64,000 nucleotides of DNA from a virus: the IMG/VR virus record IMGVR_UViG_3300015202_000003, positions 124,001-188,000 of that record; one strand, 5' to 3'. Positions 1 through 61,592 of the stretch are shown here, one piece after another; the stretch's first letter is position 1; the number at the start of each line of letters is the position of its first letter. Made by a program: the position numbers and the translations under genes. The notes beneath the pieces are model-generated. The model did no database searches. It was not told the DNA's origin and saw only the letters and a list, made by a program, of their open reading frames with translations.

Positions 1-2093
1 TTGGAAAATTGTTTACGGCGCGTCCTATTTTAGTAAAGGCTTATCAACATGGTGAAAGTTTAAATTTGGAACATCCTTTTACTAAAAGTGAAATTGTAAT
101 TTCGACTCACGATGATGTTAGGTTAGAACATTTTTGGAGACAGGATTTCGAGTTTAAAAATATATCGGCACCTCGTTACATACATATAGATCAAAGCTTT
201 GGGTCTTCTGACAATAACGGCGACTGCGGCGGAATTTCGCAGGTTTACATTGACAGGTTTGAAGAGAAAAACGGTCTTTTAAAACCTGTTTTTTGTGTGG
301 ATTATATGCTTCAAATTAACCCTCCAAGACTGCCTCAAAAACTTTCTATTTCAAAAGTAAGAGATTTTGTTTTTTGGTTACAAGACAACAAAAATATAAA
401 TTTTGGATTCATTTCTTATGACGGCGCGGGTTCTGCGGAATCTCTTCAAACTATTTCAGAGAGGGGAATACCTTGTAAGTTGTTATCTGTTGATAGAAGC
501 GATGATGCGTATACTTCTCTTGTGAACATAATTTTCGAGGAAAGGCTTTACTCTTATTTTTACGAGCCTTTTGAAAATAACTTTTTAAATTTAATACACG
601 ACAGAGCCAACAGAAAAGTAGATCATCCAAAAAGTTGTTTTGTTGCCGACACAAAAATAAAATTGTTAGACGGCACATATCCAACAATTAAAGAGTTGTC
701 TGATAGAACATTAGAAGACCCCAACTATGAATTTTGGGTTTATTCTTCTCTGCCAGATGGAACACCCGTTCCCGGAAAAGCACGTCGCGCTCGATTAACT
801 TCATTAAACCGAGAAATAGTTGAAGTCAAATTGGACAACGGCGAAACAATCAGATGCACTCCTGACCACAGGTTTCTTCTACGAAACGGAGAGTATAGAG
901 AAGCTGAGTTTTTAACAACGGGAGATTCTTTAATGCCTTTGTATTGGGCTTTTAAGAGTCGTTTGAAAAAAAGAGAGTGTGAAAAAGAAGACGGATATGA
1001 AAGAATAAAAAATAATAAAACAGGTCAGTGGTGTTTAACTCATTCTTGGGTCAGTCGGTTTTTTGATTTTGGCGTGGTGTGGAAAAGTGGTAACGTTATA
1101 CATCACGTTGATTATAACAAGAAGAACAATATTCCCGAAAATTTACAGCTATTAACTAACAGCGAACACATGAAAATTCATGCTCTTTCTGAAGCTATAG
1201 CTAAAATGAAAATTTCTCTTAAAAAGTATTTTGAGGAAAACCCAAGCTCTGCTAAAGAAAGAAGGAAGGGCTATGTTCCTCAACATCTGATTGATTTTTT
1301 GAAAACGGAAGAAGGGATAAATCAGTCCGGAAAAAAAATCGAAAAAGTGAACGAAGTTTATTGGAAATCTGAAGAAGGTGTTTTAAAAAGAAATCAGATT
1401 CGTAAAGAGCTTACTGAAAAGGGCTATACAGAAGTCCTTGAGAAAAACAATTTAAAATTTGAACATACTCAAAAAGAAAAATCAAAGCCCTGTTTGGACT
1501 ATGTTCTTTGTTCTGGTCATGCGAAGTATTTACTTGGGGGCAGAAAAAGTTCGTGGGTTAGAAGGTTTGAACAGTGGGACATAAACCTTCAAGAAAACTA
1601 TAAACGAGTGAAAGAATTATCCGAAAATTCAATAGAGGAAGCTGTTGAGAAAACGGGTTTGAAAGATGTAAGGCATTTAAAAATCTATCTCAACAAATGT
1701 AAAAACACACACAATCACAAAGTAATTTCTGTTAAATTTTTAGGGGAGAAAGAAGATGTTTACGACATAGAAGTTCCTGAATATCACAACTTCGCATTAG
1801 CATCGGGGATTTTCGTTCACAATAGTAAAAAAGATGTGAGTGATTCTCTGGCGGGGGCTATTTATTCTGCTATTAAAAACTCTTCTAATTCCAACATTCA
1901 AAGATACGATCCTAATTTATTAATTTTATCTAACAATAATTCAGAAGAAGATGAAGACAGTAGTTATAAAGATTTCGGTTTCAATTTAAATTCAAGTAAT
2001 CCACAGATTCAAGTATTAAATAAAAGTTCGGATGCGTTTGATTTATTTGAGGATAAAGGAGAAGAGGGTTCCGGGGTTTCAATTTTCTTTTAA
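1..2093 (+). CDS. Terminase large subunit, C-terminal part, with intein (5' partial)
   Basis: This is the nuclease half of the DNA-packaging terminase, which cuts concatemeric phage DNA and with its ATPase half pumps it through the portal. The frame is open to the left window edge, so the ATPase domain lies upstream; the TTG at 9 need not be a start. An RNase H-like fold is visible: an acidic strand in YIHIDQSFGSS, a second in GFISYDGAGSA, and DVSDSLAGAIY carrying the last catalytic acid. About 298 extein residues are present. Residues 210-605, counted from the TTG at 9, are an intein inserted between DHPKS and SKKDVSD, next to the last active-site motif, so activity should depend on splicing. 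The C-terminal 80 residues are Ser/Asn/acidic and look disordered. Seen: motifs and intein ends. Known: T4 gp17-type nuclease. Certainty is high for the family. Confidence 0.88.
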   Translation, partial: GKLFTARPILVKAYQHGESLNLEHPFTKSEIVISTHDDVRLEHFWRQDFEFKNISAPRYIHIDQSFGSSDNNGDCGGISQVYIDRFEEKNGLLKPVFCVDYMLQINPPRLPQKLSISKVRDFVFWLQDNKNINFGFISYDGAGSAESLQTISERGIPCKLLSVDRSDDAYTSLVNIIFEERLYSYFYEPFENNFLNLIHDRANRKVDHPKSCFVADTKIKLLDGTYPTIKELSDRTLEDPNYEFWVYSSLPDGTPVPGKARRARLTSLNREIVEVKLDNGETIRCTPDHRFLLRNGEYREAEFLTTGDSLMPLYWAFKSRLKKRECEKEDGYERIKNNKTGQWCLTHSWVSRFFDFGVVWKSGNVIHHVDYNKKNNIPENLQLLTNSEHMKIHALSEAIAKMKISLKKYFEENPSSAKERRKGYVPQHLIDFLKTEEGINQSGKKIEKVNEVYWKSEEGVLKRNQIRKELTEKGYTEVLEKNNLKFEHTQKEKSKPCLDYVLCSGHAKYLLGGRKSSWVRRFEQWDINLQENYKRVKELSENSIEEAVEKTGLKDVRHLKIYLNKCKNTHNHKVISVKFLGEKEDVYDIEVPEYHNFALASGIFVHNSKKDVSDSLAGAIYSAIKNSSNSNIQRYDPNLLILSNNNSEEDEDSSYKDFGFNLNSSNPQIQVLNKSSDAFDLFEDKGEEGSGVSIFF
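636..1823 (+). other. Intein with HNH homing endonuclease in the terminase gene
   Basis: A 396-residue protein-splicing element. It begins with Cys1 in CFVADTKIKLLDG, has a block-B-like segment (RCTPDHRFLLRNGEYREAE), and ends in a typical block F/G (YDIEVPEYHNFALASG then IFVHN) followed by Ser +1. The centre holds an HNH nuclease signature, IHHVDYNKKNNIPENLQLLT. Splicing would join DHPKS to SKKDVSD. The remaining central 200 residues are lysine-rich and probably DNA-binding. All canonical splice residues (Cys1, the B-block His, terminal His-Asn, Ser +1) are present, so it looks active. It resembles the portal intein at both ends. Confidence 0.92.
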
Positions 2094-8342: not shown

Positions 8343-10832
8343 ATGAAAATTTTTGGCATTAGTTTATTTGAGAAGAACAACAATCTTTCTAATAATTTTA
8401 CGAATCAGCATCAACAACAAATAGAAGTCAAATCGGACATTCCTGATTTTGACGATATAAATGATTCTAACTCTTTGTGGACTTTAGTTTCTGGGGCTAA
8501 AATTATTTCTGAGGTTCGTTCTGCTAAATTGAGGCAGTTTAAAACGATGGGTTATCATACGACTATCAATTCTGCATTAGAAATGATGTCTGAGGATGCG
8601 ACACAATTAAATCAGGAAAACAGAAAAATATTTTGGGTAACATCGGAAACACCTGAAATAGAAGAGCATTTAAATGATTTTTTAACTGACCAAGTAAGAA
8701 TCCAAGAGCGTTTATTTCTATGGGCTTATCGAATTGCCAGAGACGGAGAATGTTATTTAAAAACTTATTTTACGGAAAGGGAAAACGCTAACAAATTAAA
8801 AGAAGATCATTTTACTAAAATAGAAAAGATAAATTCTCTTAACGAATCAAATTTCCAAGAGAGAAAATTAAAACAGGAATTAATTAAAAAATCTGTTTTA
8901 ACGATAGAAGAAAAAAGAAGTCTGGAAGTATTAGATGATGATGAATATTATGAAGAAGTTCAAGATTCCAGTAAAGTTTCAAACTTAACTTTATATGGAA
9001 AAACTTCTGCTTTTTTGTTTATAGAAAACGATGGGAATAGTGTTATTTTCAAACCTCAAGATTACATACATTTTGTTTCTGATAGAAACATGAACCGAGA
9101 AGATGTTGAAATTGAATTTACGAATAATGACAAGACAAAAGAAAAAAGAAAATTTTTAATTAAATATGGAACTTCTTTTTTGGAGGGTGTAGTTCAGGAT
9201 TACAATGTAATTGAATTGTTAGAAAACGTTTTAGTAGTTTCTCGTTTAAGCCGTTCTCAGTTGTTTAGATTATTTTTAATTAATGTAGGGGCTTCTTCTA
9301 ACATAGAGGCTCTTAAAATGGTAAGGGATTTTAAAAATTCTATTAAAAACAGAGAGTCGGTAGATGTTAAATCGGGAAAATATGTAAACACTTCTTCTCC
9401 TCTTCCAATTTCAGATAATATCTTTATTCCTACCCGCCAAGGTAAGGGAGATGTAAGTGTTCAGGATATTGGGGGAAATGTAGATGTTAAATCTATCGTA
9501 GATTTTGATTTTTTTTGGAGTAAATTTTGTGGTGCCCTGCGCGTGCCAAAGGCATACTTATGTCTAAGAGGAAACACAAAAGTATCTCTTTTAGATGGAA
9601 CAACACCTACATTGGCAGAAATGAGCGAAAACTCTTCTTATTACGTTGGAAGGTCAATTCTTACTTGTGATGCTACAGGAGAGATTAAACCAACAACTAT
9701 TACTCATGTTCACAAGACACGTTTAAACGCTTCTTTTGTTAGAGTTACTTTAGACAACAATGAATTTGTAGACTTTACGCCAGATCATTTATTTCAAATG
9801 AGAGACGGTAGTTTTAAAGAAGCAGGTAAATTGTTGCCCGACGATTCTTTAATGCCTTTTTATACGAGAGTATGTGAGAAAGGATATTCTTGTGTAAAAA
9901 GAAACAATAAATCTGGAGGTTGGGTTCCTATACATCGTTTAATGGCAAAAAGCGGTTTTTTGGGAGAAATGCCGAAAGGCTACGTTGTTCATCACAAAGA
10001 TAAAAATAAGTTAAACAATGACGCATCTAATTTGGAAGTAATGTCTCGTTACGACTATTATAAAAAACACAGTGAAGAACATATAAAAAATCGTTTAGCC
10101 TCTTTTCTAAAAAGTAGGGCTGAAAAGTTTTCAAAATCTTATTCCTCTGTTGAGGATGAAAATTTTAACAGCCATAAAGTTCTTAAAGTTGAATTTTTAA
10201 ATGTTGTAGAAGATGCTTATGATTTAGGAGTAGACGACGATTCTCATACTTTTCCTTTAGCTTGCGGTATTTTTGTTCACAACTCTTTTGATGATGCAAT
10301 CGGAGGACAGTATTCCAACACATCTTTGACAAGACTTGATATAAGATATGCCAGAACGGTTAAAAGAATAGTGGTTGCATTACAAGTTGGGATTGAAAAA
10401 ATAATTGACAATCATTTAGAGACAATTAAAAAAGAAGATTGGAAAGGAAAATATAAAGTGGTATCTACCCCGGTATCCGATGCAGAAGAATCCGATAGAC
10501 TTCAAGACTTACAAACTAAAATAGAATTTTGCTCTACTTTAGGAAGTGTTTTAACTTCTGTAGAGGGTGTTTATTCTCCTTTAGAACAAAAGGCTATTTT
10601 ACGAAGTTTCATTAAAGATAAAGTTGGAATAGATGTAGAAAAAGTTCTTGCTGCTTATTTAGAATTACACCCCGAAGAAGAAGAAGTTCCCGTTCCTGCC
10701 GAAGATGGACAAGAACAAGACCCTAACCAAGAAGCTGCCCCTGAAGATGGAGAACAACAAGAACCAAAAACTAATTCAACAACAAAAGAGCCTTCTCTGG
10801 AAGATTTATCTTCTCAGTTGGACGCCCTCTAA
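8343..10832 (+). CDS. Portal protein with intein
   Basis: The portal is the dodecameric vertex ring through which terminase pumps DNA and to which the neck attaches. The 829-residue precursor holds a 241-residue intein (residues 407-647), leaving 588 residues of portal against 524 for T4 gp20. Portal-like features are the N-terminal SGAKIISEVRSAKLRQFKTM and YHTTINSALEMMSEDA, the clip/wing-type RLSRSQLFRLFLINVG with LKMVRDFKNSIKNRE, then LRVPKAYL, the intein, and SFDDAIGGQYSNTSLTRLD, matching the gp20-type LR-P-AYL...T-SLTRLDI sequence. The C-terminal 55 residues are acidic and Gln/Pro-rich, probably flexible. The start ATG lies 70 bases after a terminator. Confidence 0.88.
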   Translation: MKIFGISLFEKNNNLSNNFTNQHQQQIEVKSDIPDFDDINDSNSLWTLVSGAKIISEVRSAKLRQFKTMGYHTTINSALEMMSEDATQLNQENRKIFWVTSETPEIEEHLNDFLTDQVRIQERLFLWAYRIARDGECYLKTYFTERENANKLKEDHFTKIEKINSLNESNFQERKLKQELIKKSVLTIEEKRSLEVLDDDEYYEEVQDSSKVSNLTLYGKTSAFLFIENDGNSVIFKPQDYIHFVSDRNMNREDVEIEFTNNDKTKEKRKFLIKYGTSFLEGVVQDYNVIELLENVLVVSRLSRSQLFRLFLINVGASSNIEALKMVRDFKNSIKNRESVDVKSGKYVNTSSPLPISDNIFIPTRQGKGDVSVQDIGGNVDVKSIVDFDFFWSKFCGALRVPKAYLCLRGNTKVSLLDGTTPTLAEMSENSSYYVGRSILTCDATGEIKPTTITHVHKTRLNASFVRVTLDNNEFVDFTPDHLFQMRDGSFKEAGKLLPDDSLMPFYTRVCEKGYSCVKRNNKSGGWVPIHRLMAKSGFLGEMPKGYVVHHKDKNKLNNDASNLEVMSRYDYYKKHSEEHIKNRLASFLKSRAEKFSKSYSSVEDENFNSHKVLKVEFLNVVEDAYDLGVDDDSHTFPLACGIFVHNSFDDAIGGQYSNTSLTRLDIRYARTVKRIVVALQVGIEKIIDNHLETIKKEDWKGKYKVVSTPVSDAEESDRLQDLQTKIEFCSTLGSVLTSVEGVYSPLEQKAILRSFIKDKVGIDVEKVLAAYLELHPEEEEVPVPAEDGQEQDPNQEAAPEDGEQQEPKTNSTTKEPSLEDLSSQLDAL
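9561..10283 (+). other. Intein with small HNH domain in the portal gene
   Basis: A compact 241-residue intein. It starts CLRGNTKVSLLDGTTPT (Cys1), has the block-B-like DFTPDHLFQMRDGSFKEA, and ends YDLGVDDDSHTFPLACGI then FVHN with Ser +1. An HNH nuclease signature, VVHHKDKNKLNNDASNLEVM, sits in the middle, with IHRLMA upstream. The endonuclease part is only ~100 residues, short even for HNH inteins, but its His and Asn residues look intact. Splicing would join VPKAYL to SFDDAIG. Its end blocks resemble those of the terminase intein, so the two may share ancestry. Confidence 0.92.
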
Positions 10833-28289: not shown

Positions 28290-29054
28290 ATGTTTAATTC
28301 TTACATTCAGAATCAAGTAGAACAAAAGTTTTCTTCTTATTTCGGCCCCAAATTATTTTTACAAAAATTTAAGTCTTCTCTAAATAAACTTGAATTTTTA
28401 AATTCGGGTGCTACTTCAGGTATTCAATTTACGATTTTCTTTGATGCGTCTCAGATAAATGGGACGTGTTGGAACTCAAAAGACCCTGAAGACTTCACAA
28501 ATTTCACAAAGTATACATCTGAGGGATGCGTAGATTCTTATTTAAGTTTTGTTATTTCTTTTTGTCAATGGTTGGAAGAGACTTTTAATTATTCAAAAAC
28601 CCCTGAATATATTTCTCAATCGGTTTTAGCAAAAACTCCAGAAACAAAACAAAATCCTTTTTTCTTAAATATGAGTAAGCTAAGAGAAAAAGGAGATGGG
28701 GATTCGGGGGTGTTTTTAAATTATTCTCCTAATTTATATTCTTCTCCGATGGGGGAGGGTTCTTCCAATGTAGATTTAAAAGAGGTTTATATTTTTTGTG
28801 AGCGTCAAATTAAGGGTCAGTTGTTGGAGAATAGGGTTCAATTAATTTTAAACGAAGACAGTGTTGAATTACTTTATCCTAAATATGAAGCTGTTTTACG
28901 AGCAACAATCGGGGGTAATTTTGAAATAGTTTCTTCAATTGCTTTACCTTCTAAGTTTTCAATTGATTATTCTTCTCCGATTAGCACACAAAATATGTGT
29001 CGTATTTTTTCTCGTTGGTTTTTTTGTGAAAGTGAGTTAGGTTTCTATTTATAA
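28290..29054 (+). CDS. Unrecognised protein in the neck region
   Basis: 254 residues, the only gene here with a near-consensus Shine-Dalgarno-like stretch (aaaaggaatATG), though the spacing is short. Mixed alpha/beta: an N-terminal helix (YIQNQVEQKFSSYF), a strand (GIQFTIFFDASQING), a helical block (YLSFVISFCQWLEETFNYS), and C-terminal strands (YEAVLRATIGGNFEIVSS) ending CRIFSRWFFCESELGFYL. No motif recognised. Its position between a neck candidate and large accessory proteins suggests a head-tail connector component, unproven. Confidence 0.65.
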   Translation: MFNSYIQNQVEQKFSSYFGPKLFLQKFKSSLNKLEFLNSGATSGIQFTIFFDASQINGTCWNSKDPEDFTNFTKYTSEGCVDSYLSFVISFCQWLEETFNYSKTPEYISQSVLAKTPETKQNPFFLNMSKLREKGDGDSGVFLNYSPNLYSSPMGEGSSNVDLKEVYIFCERQIKGQLLENRVQLILNEDSVELLYPKYEAVLRATIGGNFEIVSSIALPSKFSIDYSSPISTQNMCRIFSRWFFCESELGFYL

Positions 29055-50839: not shown

Positions 50840-50871
50840 ACAGTTTTATTTTTAATTTTTTAAAACTGTTT
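50838..50871. terminator. Bidirectional hairpin between convergent genes
   Basis: An 11-bp inverted repeat aaacagtttta / taaaactgttt with a T-rich 12-base loop overlaps the end of the minus-strand methyltransferase and the end of the spike gene. It would stop both strands' transcripts. Confidence 0.68.
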
Positions 50872-51370
50872 CAAATAGATTTTCACAGGGTAGAATTTGC
50901 TTGCATAGCCACACAGAAGAAAATGGAGGGCAAACTGAAGGTTTCTGTTCTTCGTAAGATTTAAAATAGGAGATTCTTTTGTTTAGCCACATGATTTCAA
51001 ATTTATTTTTACTAAACAAATTGAAACGTTTTTGACTTTCAAAAAGCCCTACAACTCCTACTAACATGGCAAAGGGTATATTTAATTCAAATAGTTTTTC
51101 AAACACTTCAAATTTTTTACTGTAGGGGGGGTTGGAAATTATAATTTCTCCTTGGGGCTGAGTGGAGAAAAAATCTTCTCCATTTTTAATGTGTGTTGCG
51201 TTAACTTTTAAATCTTTTTCTTTTAAAGTTTTTACGATTAAACTTTCTTCTGTATCAAAAGGACACCAGATAATTTTTTCTTTTGGTAAATATTTTAATA
51301 GGGGTTCTACTGCATATCTGGGTGTATAAAATTCGTCGTTTCCACTGTTAGCTATTTTATCCATTTTCAT
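50852..51370 (-). CDS. DNA adenine methyltransferase-like protein
   Basis: 172 residues, the only complete minus-strand gene. NSGNDEFYTPRYAVEPLLKY, then WCPFDTEESLIVKTLKE and IIISNPPYSKKFEVFEKLFE contain the NPPY motif (80-83) of amino-methyltransferases; the first part corresponds to the substrate/AdoMet side. At 172 residues it is short for a complete adenine methyltransferase and has no obvious FxGxG motif, so it could be a minimal or a specialised enzyme. Placed as a small island between the spike and the PAAR tip gene; it starts divergently from the PAAR gene with a 79-base gap. Probable role: protection of phage DNA or marking. Confidence 0.72.
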   Translation of the reverse strand: MKMDKIANSGNDEFYTPRYAVEPLLKYLPKEKIIWCPFDTEESLIVKTLKEKDLKVNATHIKNGEDFFSTQPQGEIIISNPPYSKKFEVFEKLFELNIPFAMLVGVVGLFESQKRFNLFSKNKFEIMWLNKRISYFKSYEEQKPSVCPPFSSVWLCKQILPCENLFETVLKN

Positions 51371-59770: not shown

Positions 59771-60295
59771 ATGTTTACATCAGAAGATACACAGCAAAAA
59801 GTTTTTGAAAATCCTATAGAAAGAAGACAGAGAAAAAATCATTTGTCTCGTTTTTTGTTTTCTTGGTTTTTTTCGATAGATACAGATACGTTAGAAAAGC
59901 TTAACATTCTGCGGAAGTTGTTTTTTGTTTTTGCAATTAGCTATTACGGCTCCAGTGTGCTTAAATTGCCGCCTCCTTATTATAGTAATCACTTTATAGT
60001 TTTAAAGGTTTGGATGTGGTCTTTTCTTTTTCTTTTAGCAATCGGGGTTCAGCTTTATGGCAGATATAAAAATTCTCTTTTTATTCGGGCGCGTGGTGCT
60101 TTATTAGGATTAGTTTTTTGCGGCGCTATTTTAGAACCTCTTTATTCTAAAAAATCGTTTCCTGATATTGATTTTTTCGCTTATTTGGTAACTTTTTTTG
60201 AGATTATTTTGTGGTCAAGGTTATCTCAAGAATGTCGTCTATTGCATAAGGTTGTTTCTAATTCATTAGATTTAAATAAAGAAATAAGTGGATAA
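59771..60295 (+). CDS. Integral membrane protein with four hydrophobic segments
   Basis: 174 residues. After a charged 35-residue N-terminus (ENPIERRQRKNHLSRF), hydrophobic stretches occur at ~55-75 (LRKLFFVFAISYYGSSVL), ~80-100 (VLKVWMWSFLFLLAIGVQ), ~112-130 (ARGALLGLVFCGAILEPLY) and ~140-158 (FFAYLVTFFEIILWSRL). The C-terminus is charged. It overlaps the next gene by 8 bases, so both are probably co-translated and may work together. Four segments would also be compatible with a holin, but that name is not supported by motif. Confidence 0.7.
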   Translation: MFTSEDTQQKVFENPIERRQRKNHLSRFLFSWFFSIDTDTLEKLNILRKLFFVFAISYYGSSVLKLPPPYYSNHFIVLKVWMWSFLFLLAIGVQLYGRYKNSLFIRARGALLGLVFCGAILEPLYSKKSFPDIDFFAYLVTFFEIILWSRLSQECRLLHKVVSNSLDLNKEISG

Positions 60296-61592
60296 TAAAA
60301 TAGAGCAATACATAAATTTTTTCGTTCATTATTTTTTTAGTAGTTTGTCCCCTGTATATAGGGGGATAGGTGGAACAACTTTGTTAGCAGCATTTTTAAA
60401 CTGGTGGCTCAAAAAACAAGAGAGTAAACAAGACAAAGGAGACAAGAAAAAAGAAGATTCTCAAACTGCTAATGCGACGGTGGAAGTTGCTCGTATTACG
60501 GATAGTGCGAGCGCCCTTCAATTTGTTTCTGGTCAATTGGAAAAATCTCAATTTCGCTCTGATTCTCTCCAAACGGACAACAATGAAAAAAACATTAAAA
60601 TAAATTCTCTAACTTATGATTTAGAAAGGGAAAAAAAGGGGGGTCAACAAGTTCAGGAAAGGTTGGAGTTTTTAAAAGAGGAAATGGCGAGAAAGAGTAA
60701 AGATTACGAAGAAATAGGTTTTAGGTCAGCATTATTTTTAGATTCTCTTCCAGATATTGTATGGTCTGCACGACAGGATGGTTTCGTAGATTACTTAAAC
60801 AGAAAGTATTTTGATACGGTAGGGCATCAATTGCCAGAGATAGAGGGTTGGGGGTGGGAGAGTTTTGTTCATTCTTCGGATATAAAATTAGTAGAAGATA
60901 TGTGGAAGAAATCTTTGGCAACGGGAGCTAATTTTGAAATTATTTATCGTTTATATCGGGCTTACGATAAATCTTATCGTTGGCAATTGACAAGAGCAAC
61001 TTTAGTAAAAATAAAAGACAGAGGGGATAAATGGGTAGGGATTTCAGTAGACATAGACAATTTAATTTCTTCTCGAAATTCTTCTTCTTTAGATTTGACT
61101 GTTGTTGGAGGTAGTTCTGAAATTAAAAACAACCCTGTAAAAATCTTAGTGGCGGATGGGGATACTGCGATTTGGGGAGTTTTAAAAACCCTGTTCAAAC
61201 TGAATGGTTGGGAAGGTTTCTTTGTGGAGGATGGAGAGCGAGCTTGGGATTCTTACGTTTCTAATTTATCTTCTTCTCCTTTTGACGTTATTATTTTAGA
61301 ACTCTCTATTCCTAAAAAAACGGGTGAACAGGTTGTAAGACAAATAAGGGAGAGTGGTGATAAAAAAACCCCTATTTTTATTGTTTCTGCTAACATTGAG
61401 GTTTTAACATTGGGCGCAAGAGAAAGTCTTTTATTAAAAGGTGTTTTATCTAAACCTTTTAATTTGGAAAATTTAAAAAGGGAAATTTTAAATGTTTTAA
61501 ATCTTAAAGTAGAAAGTGAAGCTACAAAAGAAGTGCGCGCCAAAGAAGCATTAAAAAAAGAGTTAGAAGATTTAACAGGTGATATGTTGTAA
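60288..61592 (+). CDS. Membrane-anchored PAS plus pseudo-receiver protein
   Basis: 434 residues, GTG start overlapping the previous gene. A hydrophobic anchor (~19-42, IGGTTLLAAFLNWWLKK), a disordered and coiled-coil region (~45-140), a PAS_3-type domain (~145-258: FLDSLPDIVWSARQDGFVDYL, GWGWESFVHSSDI, EIIYRLYRAYDKSYRWQL, WVGISVDID) and a receiver-like domain (~282-405: KILVADGDTAIW, DVIILELSIPKKTGEQVV, IFIVSAN, LSKPF). In the receiver the acid pair is reduced (Asp290, Gly291, Asp292), and the phosphoacceptor position is Glu338, where an Asp is normal; Ser367 and Lys389 are present. It therefore probably does not take phosphate as a standard receiver does and could mimic the active state. No kinase domain exists. 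Role unknown; a sensor or host-signalling decoy is suggested. Confidence 0.82.
   Translation: MDNKIEQYINFFVHYFFSSLSPVYRGIGGTTLLAAFLNWWLKKQESKQDKGDKKKEDSQTANATVEVARITDSASALQFVSGQLEKSQFRSDSLQTDNNEKNIKINSLTYDLEREKKGGQQVQERLEFLKEEMARKSKDYEEIGFRSALFLDSLPDIVWSARQDGFVDYLNRKYFDTVGHQLPEIEGWGWESFVHSSDIKLVEDMWKKSLATGANFEIIYRLYRAYDKSYRWQLTRATLVKIKDRGDKWVGISVDIDNLISSRNSSSLDLTVVGGSSEIKNNPVKILVADGDTAIWGVLKTLFKLNGWEGFFVEDGERAWDSYVSNLSSSPFDVIILELSIPKKTGEQVVRQIRESGDKKTPIFIVSANIEVLTLGARESLLLKGVLSKPFNLENLKREILNVLNLKVESEATKEVRAKEALKKELEDLTGDML

Follow-up and report, generated by a model that had tools for sequence, protein, structure and literature searches.

Receivers without the phospho-Asp, or without other residues that are key to phosphotransfer, are termed aspartate-less receivers (ALR) or pseudo-receivers (PsR) (PMC4395418, PMC12632262). 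This class makes up 4% of receivers. Glu is the most frequent replacement in it (26% of the class), and loss of the second metal-binding acid is typical (PMC4395418). A change from Asp to Glu alone is often insufficient for receiver activation (PMC4395418, PMC12632262), and a 2025 review (PMC12632262) speaks of a mystery as regards the mode of action of pseudo-receivers in bacteria. In phages, two-component parts are usually taken for host-metabolism genes. The gene set of Alteromonas phage A5 that includes a receiver was assigned by its authors to a host-recognition module, and the receiver itself was regarded as an auxiliary metabolic gene (PMC10579305; PMC7289586). In Alteromonas phage R8W, the endolysin (g43) and the holin (g46) lie close to g48, a PhoB-like regulator (PMC8228385).

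The gene described here is located in a 198,095-bp myovirus contig (IMG/VR record IMGVR_UViG_3300015202_000003). The window is the whole stretch of 64,000 nucleotides that was analysed, corresponding to bases 124001-188000 of this record. Head and tail genes of the record comprise a T4-type major head protein, a portal, a prohead protease and a contractile sheath; the nearest cultured head proteins are those of Listeria phage LIS04 (42% identity) and Bacillus phage SP-15 (39% identity). A Shine-Dalgarno-like motif precedes none of the 45 window genes, with about 5 expected by chance, which suggests that the host probably belongs to a lineage whose translation does without such motifs. TATAAT is depleted in the intergenic DNA of the window (4 occurrences vs. 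about 16), so that both promoter and translation signals of the host appear unusual; the Bacteroidota promoter motif TAnnTTTG displays no enrichment in the window.

Several other features of the record deserve mention. In the portal ORF (8343-10832, 829 aa), the portal match is followed by an HNH-endonuclease stretch, and a 694-aa ORF at window positions 9-2093 also contains HNH; both stretches are probable inteins or inserted homing elements. Window positions 50852-51370 hold one of the rare genes on the minus strand in the late region, with weak likeness to EcoRI-type adenine methylases (E 2e-5, under the cut-off). An IS607-type element, consisting of a MerR-resolvase followed by a TnpB-like ORF, is found at L068:7877-9680 (record 191877-193680), and further TnpB-like ORFs at L061:3784-4905 and L066:7870-9030; TnpB was called by eye from the sequence in all of these. 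A small secreted-looking protein (L066:9160-9528) with a DPBB lytic-transglycosylase-like domain (E 1.7e-8) is a possible lysis enzyme of the phage.

The locus consists of two overlapping genes with the following features, as derived from ORF calls, Pfam, alignment, hydropathy and AlphaFold2:

59771-60295, plus strand: 174-aa multi-spanning membrane protein with four strong segments and no known family (ORF call, Pfam, hydropathy)
60288-61592, plus strand: coding sequence, 434 aa, GTG start, ordered as anchor, coiled coil, PAS and pseudo-receiver (ORF call, Pfam, AlphaFold2)
60288-60425, plus strand: residues 1-46, two hydrophobic helices (2-19 and 28-46) followed by a Lys-rich stretch; probable membrane anchor (moderate confidence)
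60447-60743, plus strand: residues 54-152, long predicted helix or coiled coil (AlphaFold2)
60735-61055, plus strand: residues 150-256, PAS_3 domain (Pfam, alignment, AlphaFold2)
61056-61136, plus strand: residues 257-283, short linker at the position of the HisKA-HATPase kinase core in bacterial relatives
61137-61499, plus strand: residues 284-404, receiver domain with canonical (beta-alpha)5 fold (Pfam, alignment, AlphaFold2)
61512-61586, plus strand: residues 409-433, C-terminal helix past the receiver (AlphaFold2)

Residues lost and kept in the receiver

The original prediction of a PAS_3-like domain and a receiver fold is borne out by Pfam and structure models. Residues 286-399 match Response_reg (PF00072) with E 7.3e-12 and 45.9 bits, above the cut-off of 30.2. 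The AlphaFold2 model of this part (pLDDT 92) displays the canonical fold and matches the receivers of CpxR, PhoP, ArlR and PorX (Foldseek; CpxR E 4.8e-10). Alignments with solved receivers agree with the residues that had been predicted from the sequence: Glu338 falls on the phospho-Asp column (PFDVIILELSIP in the phage protein vs. PFDVVILDIMLP), the acid pair reads Asp290-Gly291, so that its second, metal-binding acid is replaced by Gly, and Asp290, Ser367 and Lys389 are unchanged. The aromatic switch position (Tyr106 of CheY), three residues before the Lys, is occupied by Val386, with loss of the Tyr or Phe. The corresponding codons, all assigned by alignment, are:

61158-61160, plus strand: Gly291, lost second metal-binding acid
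61299-61301, plus strand: Glu338 (GAA), phospho-Asp position
61386-61388, plus strand: Ser367, conserved Thr/Ser position
61443-61445, plus strand: Val386, aromatic-switch position
61452-61454, plus strand: Lys389, conserved active-site Lys

In an alignment of the phage receiver with 36 relatives, nine columns are at least 90% conserved; seven of the nine are kept, and the sole two departures concern the phospho-Asp and the second acid that binds metal. Among 104 bacterial receivers in the fetched loci, 100 have Asp at the phospho site and none has Glu. A phosphorylatable response regulator has the phospho-Asp and two metal acids, of which the phage protein has replaced the former by Glu338 and one of the latter by Gly291. 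Judged from its sequence, the phage receiver is an aspartate-less receiver (pseudo-receiver) of the commonest kind, the one with Glu. Since Glu is the commonest replacement in this class, whose members typically lack the second acid, the substitution itself is of a known kind. A constitutively active (phosphomimetic) state, as in the suggested fixed-on decoy, appears doubtful, because neither the metal-binding acid nor the aromatic switch is retained.

Membership in the cyclic-phosphate processing receivers (cREC) (PMC7824862) was considered and rejected, PF20274 being absent from the Pfam matches of the protein. A cREC gene is present elsewhere in the phage (L062:8493-8834, record 28493-28834; PF20274 E 2.2e-17). 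The phage record holds no second PF00072 receiver.

PAS domain, missing kinase and membrane context

PAS_3 is matched at residues 169-251 (E 3.8e-10, 40.3 bits vs. a cut-off of 25.6). AlphaFold2 models the domain at pLDDT 86-97, behind the long helix and a pair of short N-terminal helices; the models of PAS and receiver come from separate alignments and carry no information on their mutual arrangement. Of the PAS_3 columns that are at least 90% conserved among relatives, 21 of 23 are kept. The domain is 41% identical to the PAS of a hybrid kinase of Cupriavidus necator (WP_078201887).

In each of the 28 close bacterial PAS relatives whose ORF also includes a receiver further downstream, a kinase lies in between, and the distance from PAS start to receiver end is 474-639 aa, as compared to about 260 aa in the phage protein. 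In a hybrid histidine kinase, PAS and receiver are separated by HisKA and HATPase_c; here the two are joined by a linker of 27 residues, Pfam finds no kinase domain in the protein, and a domain search finds no HATPase domain in the whole phage record. The suggestion of a phage PAS-receiver protein devoid of kinase thus holds. In the simplest reading, we infer that the gene derives from a hybrid-kinase-like module of PAS, kinase and receiver that has lost the kinase core and the phosphotransfer acids. Alternatively, it may be a fusion of a PAS and a receiver that were acquired separately.

For the whole 434-aa protein no relative, and hence no orthologue, was found among viral_contigs, phages, 42 related phage records and genome_contigs. 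The PAS profile has no match among viral contigs. PAS families have none in 40 phage records, a negative that is weak because the PAS-like proteins of Cellulophaga phages (see below) were missed as well. A neutral acquisition or a decaying gene that has no function in the phage would agree with the absence of homologues from the 42 related records. We regard this as quite improbable: the ORF is intact over 434 codons, its codon composition resembles that of its neighbours (GC 0.348, GC3 0.262), the cores of both domains are conserved, and its start overlaps the stop of the upstream gene by 8 bases.

This overlap suggests that 59771-60295 and 60288-61592 are probably translationally coupled. 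The upstream product, predicted to be a four-segment protein, does have four good membrane segments, to which a weak fifth must be added; it has no relative in viral_contigs or phages. The membrane anchor claimed for the PAS-receiver protein is less clear-cut, as residues 9-27 partition favourably into the membrane on the octanol scale, yet mean Kyte-Doolittle hydropathy is only 0.75, and as a membrane segment the second helix (28-46) is borderline. The N-terminal helices nevertheless likely anchor the protein in the membrane. From the Lys-rich stretch after the anchor, the positive-inside rule would place PAS and receiver in the cytoplasm.

A polytopic membrane protein as partner and the well-kept PAS core (21 of 23 columns) would also be compatible with an accessory sensor of another late function, such as the exclusion of superinfecting phages or the control of a membrane channel through redox or ligand sensing by the PAS, with the receiver as a structural remnant. 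This appears unlikely. The receiver core is kept too, save two acids, which disfavours a mere remnant.

Two-component parts in other phages

Within the late region, the gene pair is situated at the end that holds the tail fibres, with tail-fibre-like genes upstream and a 5'-3' exonuclease gene downstream. Loci of other phages were reached by Foldseek against viral models and by following the matches, and hence do not represent an unbiased count. Most receiver matches in records labelled as phage were set aside, since they look like bacterial sequence from mislabelled or contaminated records. Genuine phage receivers of the CheY-like type are the following:

L184:25749-26198, L188:4001-4444, L185:4013-4390 and L189:2044-2457: lone receivers with intact Asp in four Alteromonas phages of different groups

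These belong to the phages V22 (gp30), A5 (gp11), PB15 and XX1924. In V22, the gene order is tail fibre, chaperone, papain-like amidase, TM/coiled-coil protein, receiver, spanin-like protein and small TM protein, and A5 has a corresponding set; in both, the receiver directly follows the TM/coiled-coil protein. In PB15 and XX1924, the order is tail fibre, 4-TM protein, TM/coiled-coil protein and receiver, and PB15 additionally has a peptidase M15 and a GTA_holin_3TM protein. The four receivers are neighboured by endolysin, GTA_holin_3TM or spanin-like genes. Like the window protein they are phage-borne, and they lie between tail-fibre and lysis genes; unlike it, they stand alone, have their Asp intact and lack a PAS. 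Their annotation is that of auxiliary metabolic genes (PMC7289586, PMC10579305).

A more complete arrangement is found in L091 (IMGVR_UViG_3300033512_000218), a contig of 139.6 kb that includes a sheath-like gene. At L091:2495-4804, beside tail-fibre-like genes, a receiver, a TM/coiled-coil protein (4-base overlap) and a PAS-histidine kinase are adjacent, apparently a complete phage two-component set; the HATPase_c of the kinase is matched with E 5e-16, and its PAS was called by eye. PAS, TM/coiled coil and receiver near tail fibres are the same types of parts as in the window protein, although here they are separate genes, a kinase is present and the receiver Asp is intact. Cellulophaga phages phi18:3 (gp090, phrog_10199) and phi19:1 (gp108, phrog_31932) encode TM/coiled-coil proteins with a PAS-like predicted fold in the lysis region, beside multi-TM membrane proteins and an endolysin. 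In contrast to the window protein, these have no receiver, are unrecognised by Pfam and display no detectable sequence homology.

An alphaproteobacterial-type contig (L090, IMGVR_UViG_3300047994_000350), which terminase, head-decoration and tail genes identify as a tailed phage, encodes a CtrA-like response regulator (L090:2369-3139) with Glu at the phospho-Asp position (LLELGLP) and Pro in the acid pair (VEPD). The gene directly follows a multi-TM protein and precedes a DNA methyltransferase. In this regulator we see the classical CtrA D51E allele matched by a natural counterpart. When receivers with Glu were specifically scanned for, only L090 was returned again. Among the genuine phage receivers, Glu is thus found in L090 and Asp in V22, A5, PB15, XX1924 and L091, where about 1% Glu would be expected (4% ALR x 26% Glu; PMC4395418), and the window itself had been picked for its Glu; the excess of Glu is suggestive, but the receivers are too few.

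The change in L090, which is the same as in the window protein, agrees with a protein that acts on host two-component signalling as a decoy or dominant-negative. Its receiver would dock on a host kinase (DHp domain) or mimic a phosphorylated regulator and titrate partners, and PAS and coiled coil may form heterodimers with a host sensor kinase. The identity of 41% to a hybrid-kinase PAS and the preserved receiver fold, Lys and Ser fit this idea, as does Glu being a classical mimic of phosphorylation (PMC12632262). We consider a decoy rather unlikely: it is without a known host partner, true mimicry of the active state is doubtful with metal acid and aromatic switch lost, and a decoy would not need membrane anchoring or a 4-TM partner.

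Gene order in unrelated phages lends indirect support to the further proposal that the protein senses the state of lysis. A putative group of phage lysis-cassette receivers would be marked by a place between tail-fibre and lysis genes and by a homologous membrane partner. In the window, the gene follows tail-fibre-like genes and the 4-TM gene, but no endolysin or spanin gene adjoins 60288-61592, and the 4-TM neighbours have no detectable sequence homology. Homology of the 4-TM proteins or the N-terminal stalks across phages was rejected (hhalign probability about 0 between 4-TM proteins), and only the receivers are related. The link to lysis is an analogy of gene order, because membrane partners, stalks and Cellulophaga PAS-like proteins are without detectable homology.

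Proposed function and known systems

Based on this dataset, we tentatively favour, with slightly less than even confidence, a probably membrane-tethered, kinase-less PAS-pseudo-receiver that acts through binding; its most likely target would be the 4-TM neighbour or another late or lysis component. Such a protein would most likely work phosphate-free. Coiled coil and PAS may form a dimer that senses some state at the inner membrane, and the receiver may serve as a fixed docking surface that controls the adjoining membrane protein or another late or lysis component, as the gene order in other phages would suggest. In a wider and more speculative hypothesis, to which we give a fairly low probability, unrelated tailed phages repeatedly group two-component parts (receiver, PAS and even a complete PAS kinase) and membrane proteins together in the tail-fibre/lysis region and thereby control the timing of lysis; in the phage described here, these parts would be reduced to one membrane-tethered PAS-pseudo-receiver that signals phosphate-free. 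If true, phages use building blocks of two-component systems to sense the state of the cell and to time lysis. V22, A5, PB15 and XX1924 are cultured phages, so the idea of lysis timing is open to experiment.

Besides the phage loci above, two further known systems are close to the phage protein. Bacterial hybrid histidine kinases of the order PAS_3, HisKA, HATPase and receiver, such as WP_078201887 of Cupriavidus necator, share with it a PAS_3 followed by a receiver, but the phage protein is without the kinase core and its receiver is not phosphorylatable. ALR/PsR proteins such as ChxR share the PF00072 fold, the replacement of the phospho-Asp by Glu, the preserved first acid and Lys, and the loss of the second acid. 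In contrast to these, the phage receiver is located C-terminal to a PAS, is probably membrane-tethered and phage-borne, and comes without a DNA-binding or enzymatic output domain. The window protein adds a natural, kinase-less example to the class of pseudo-receivers.
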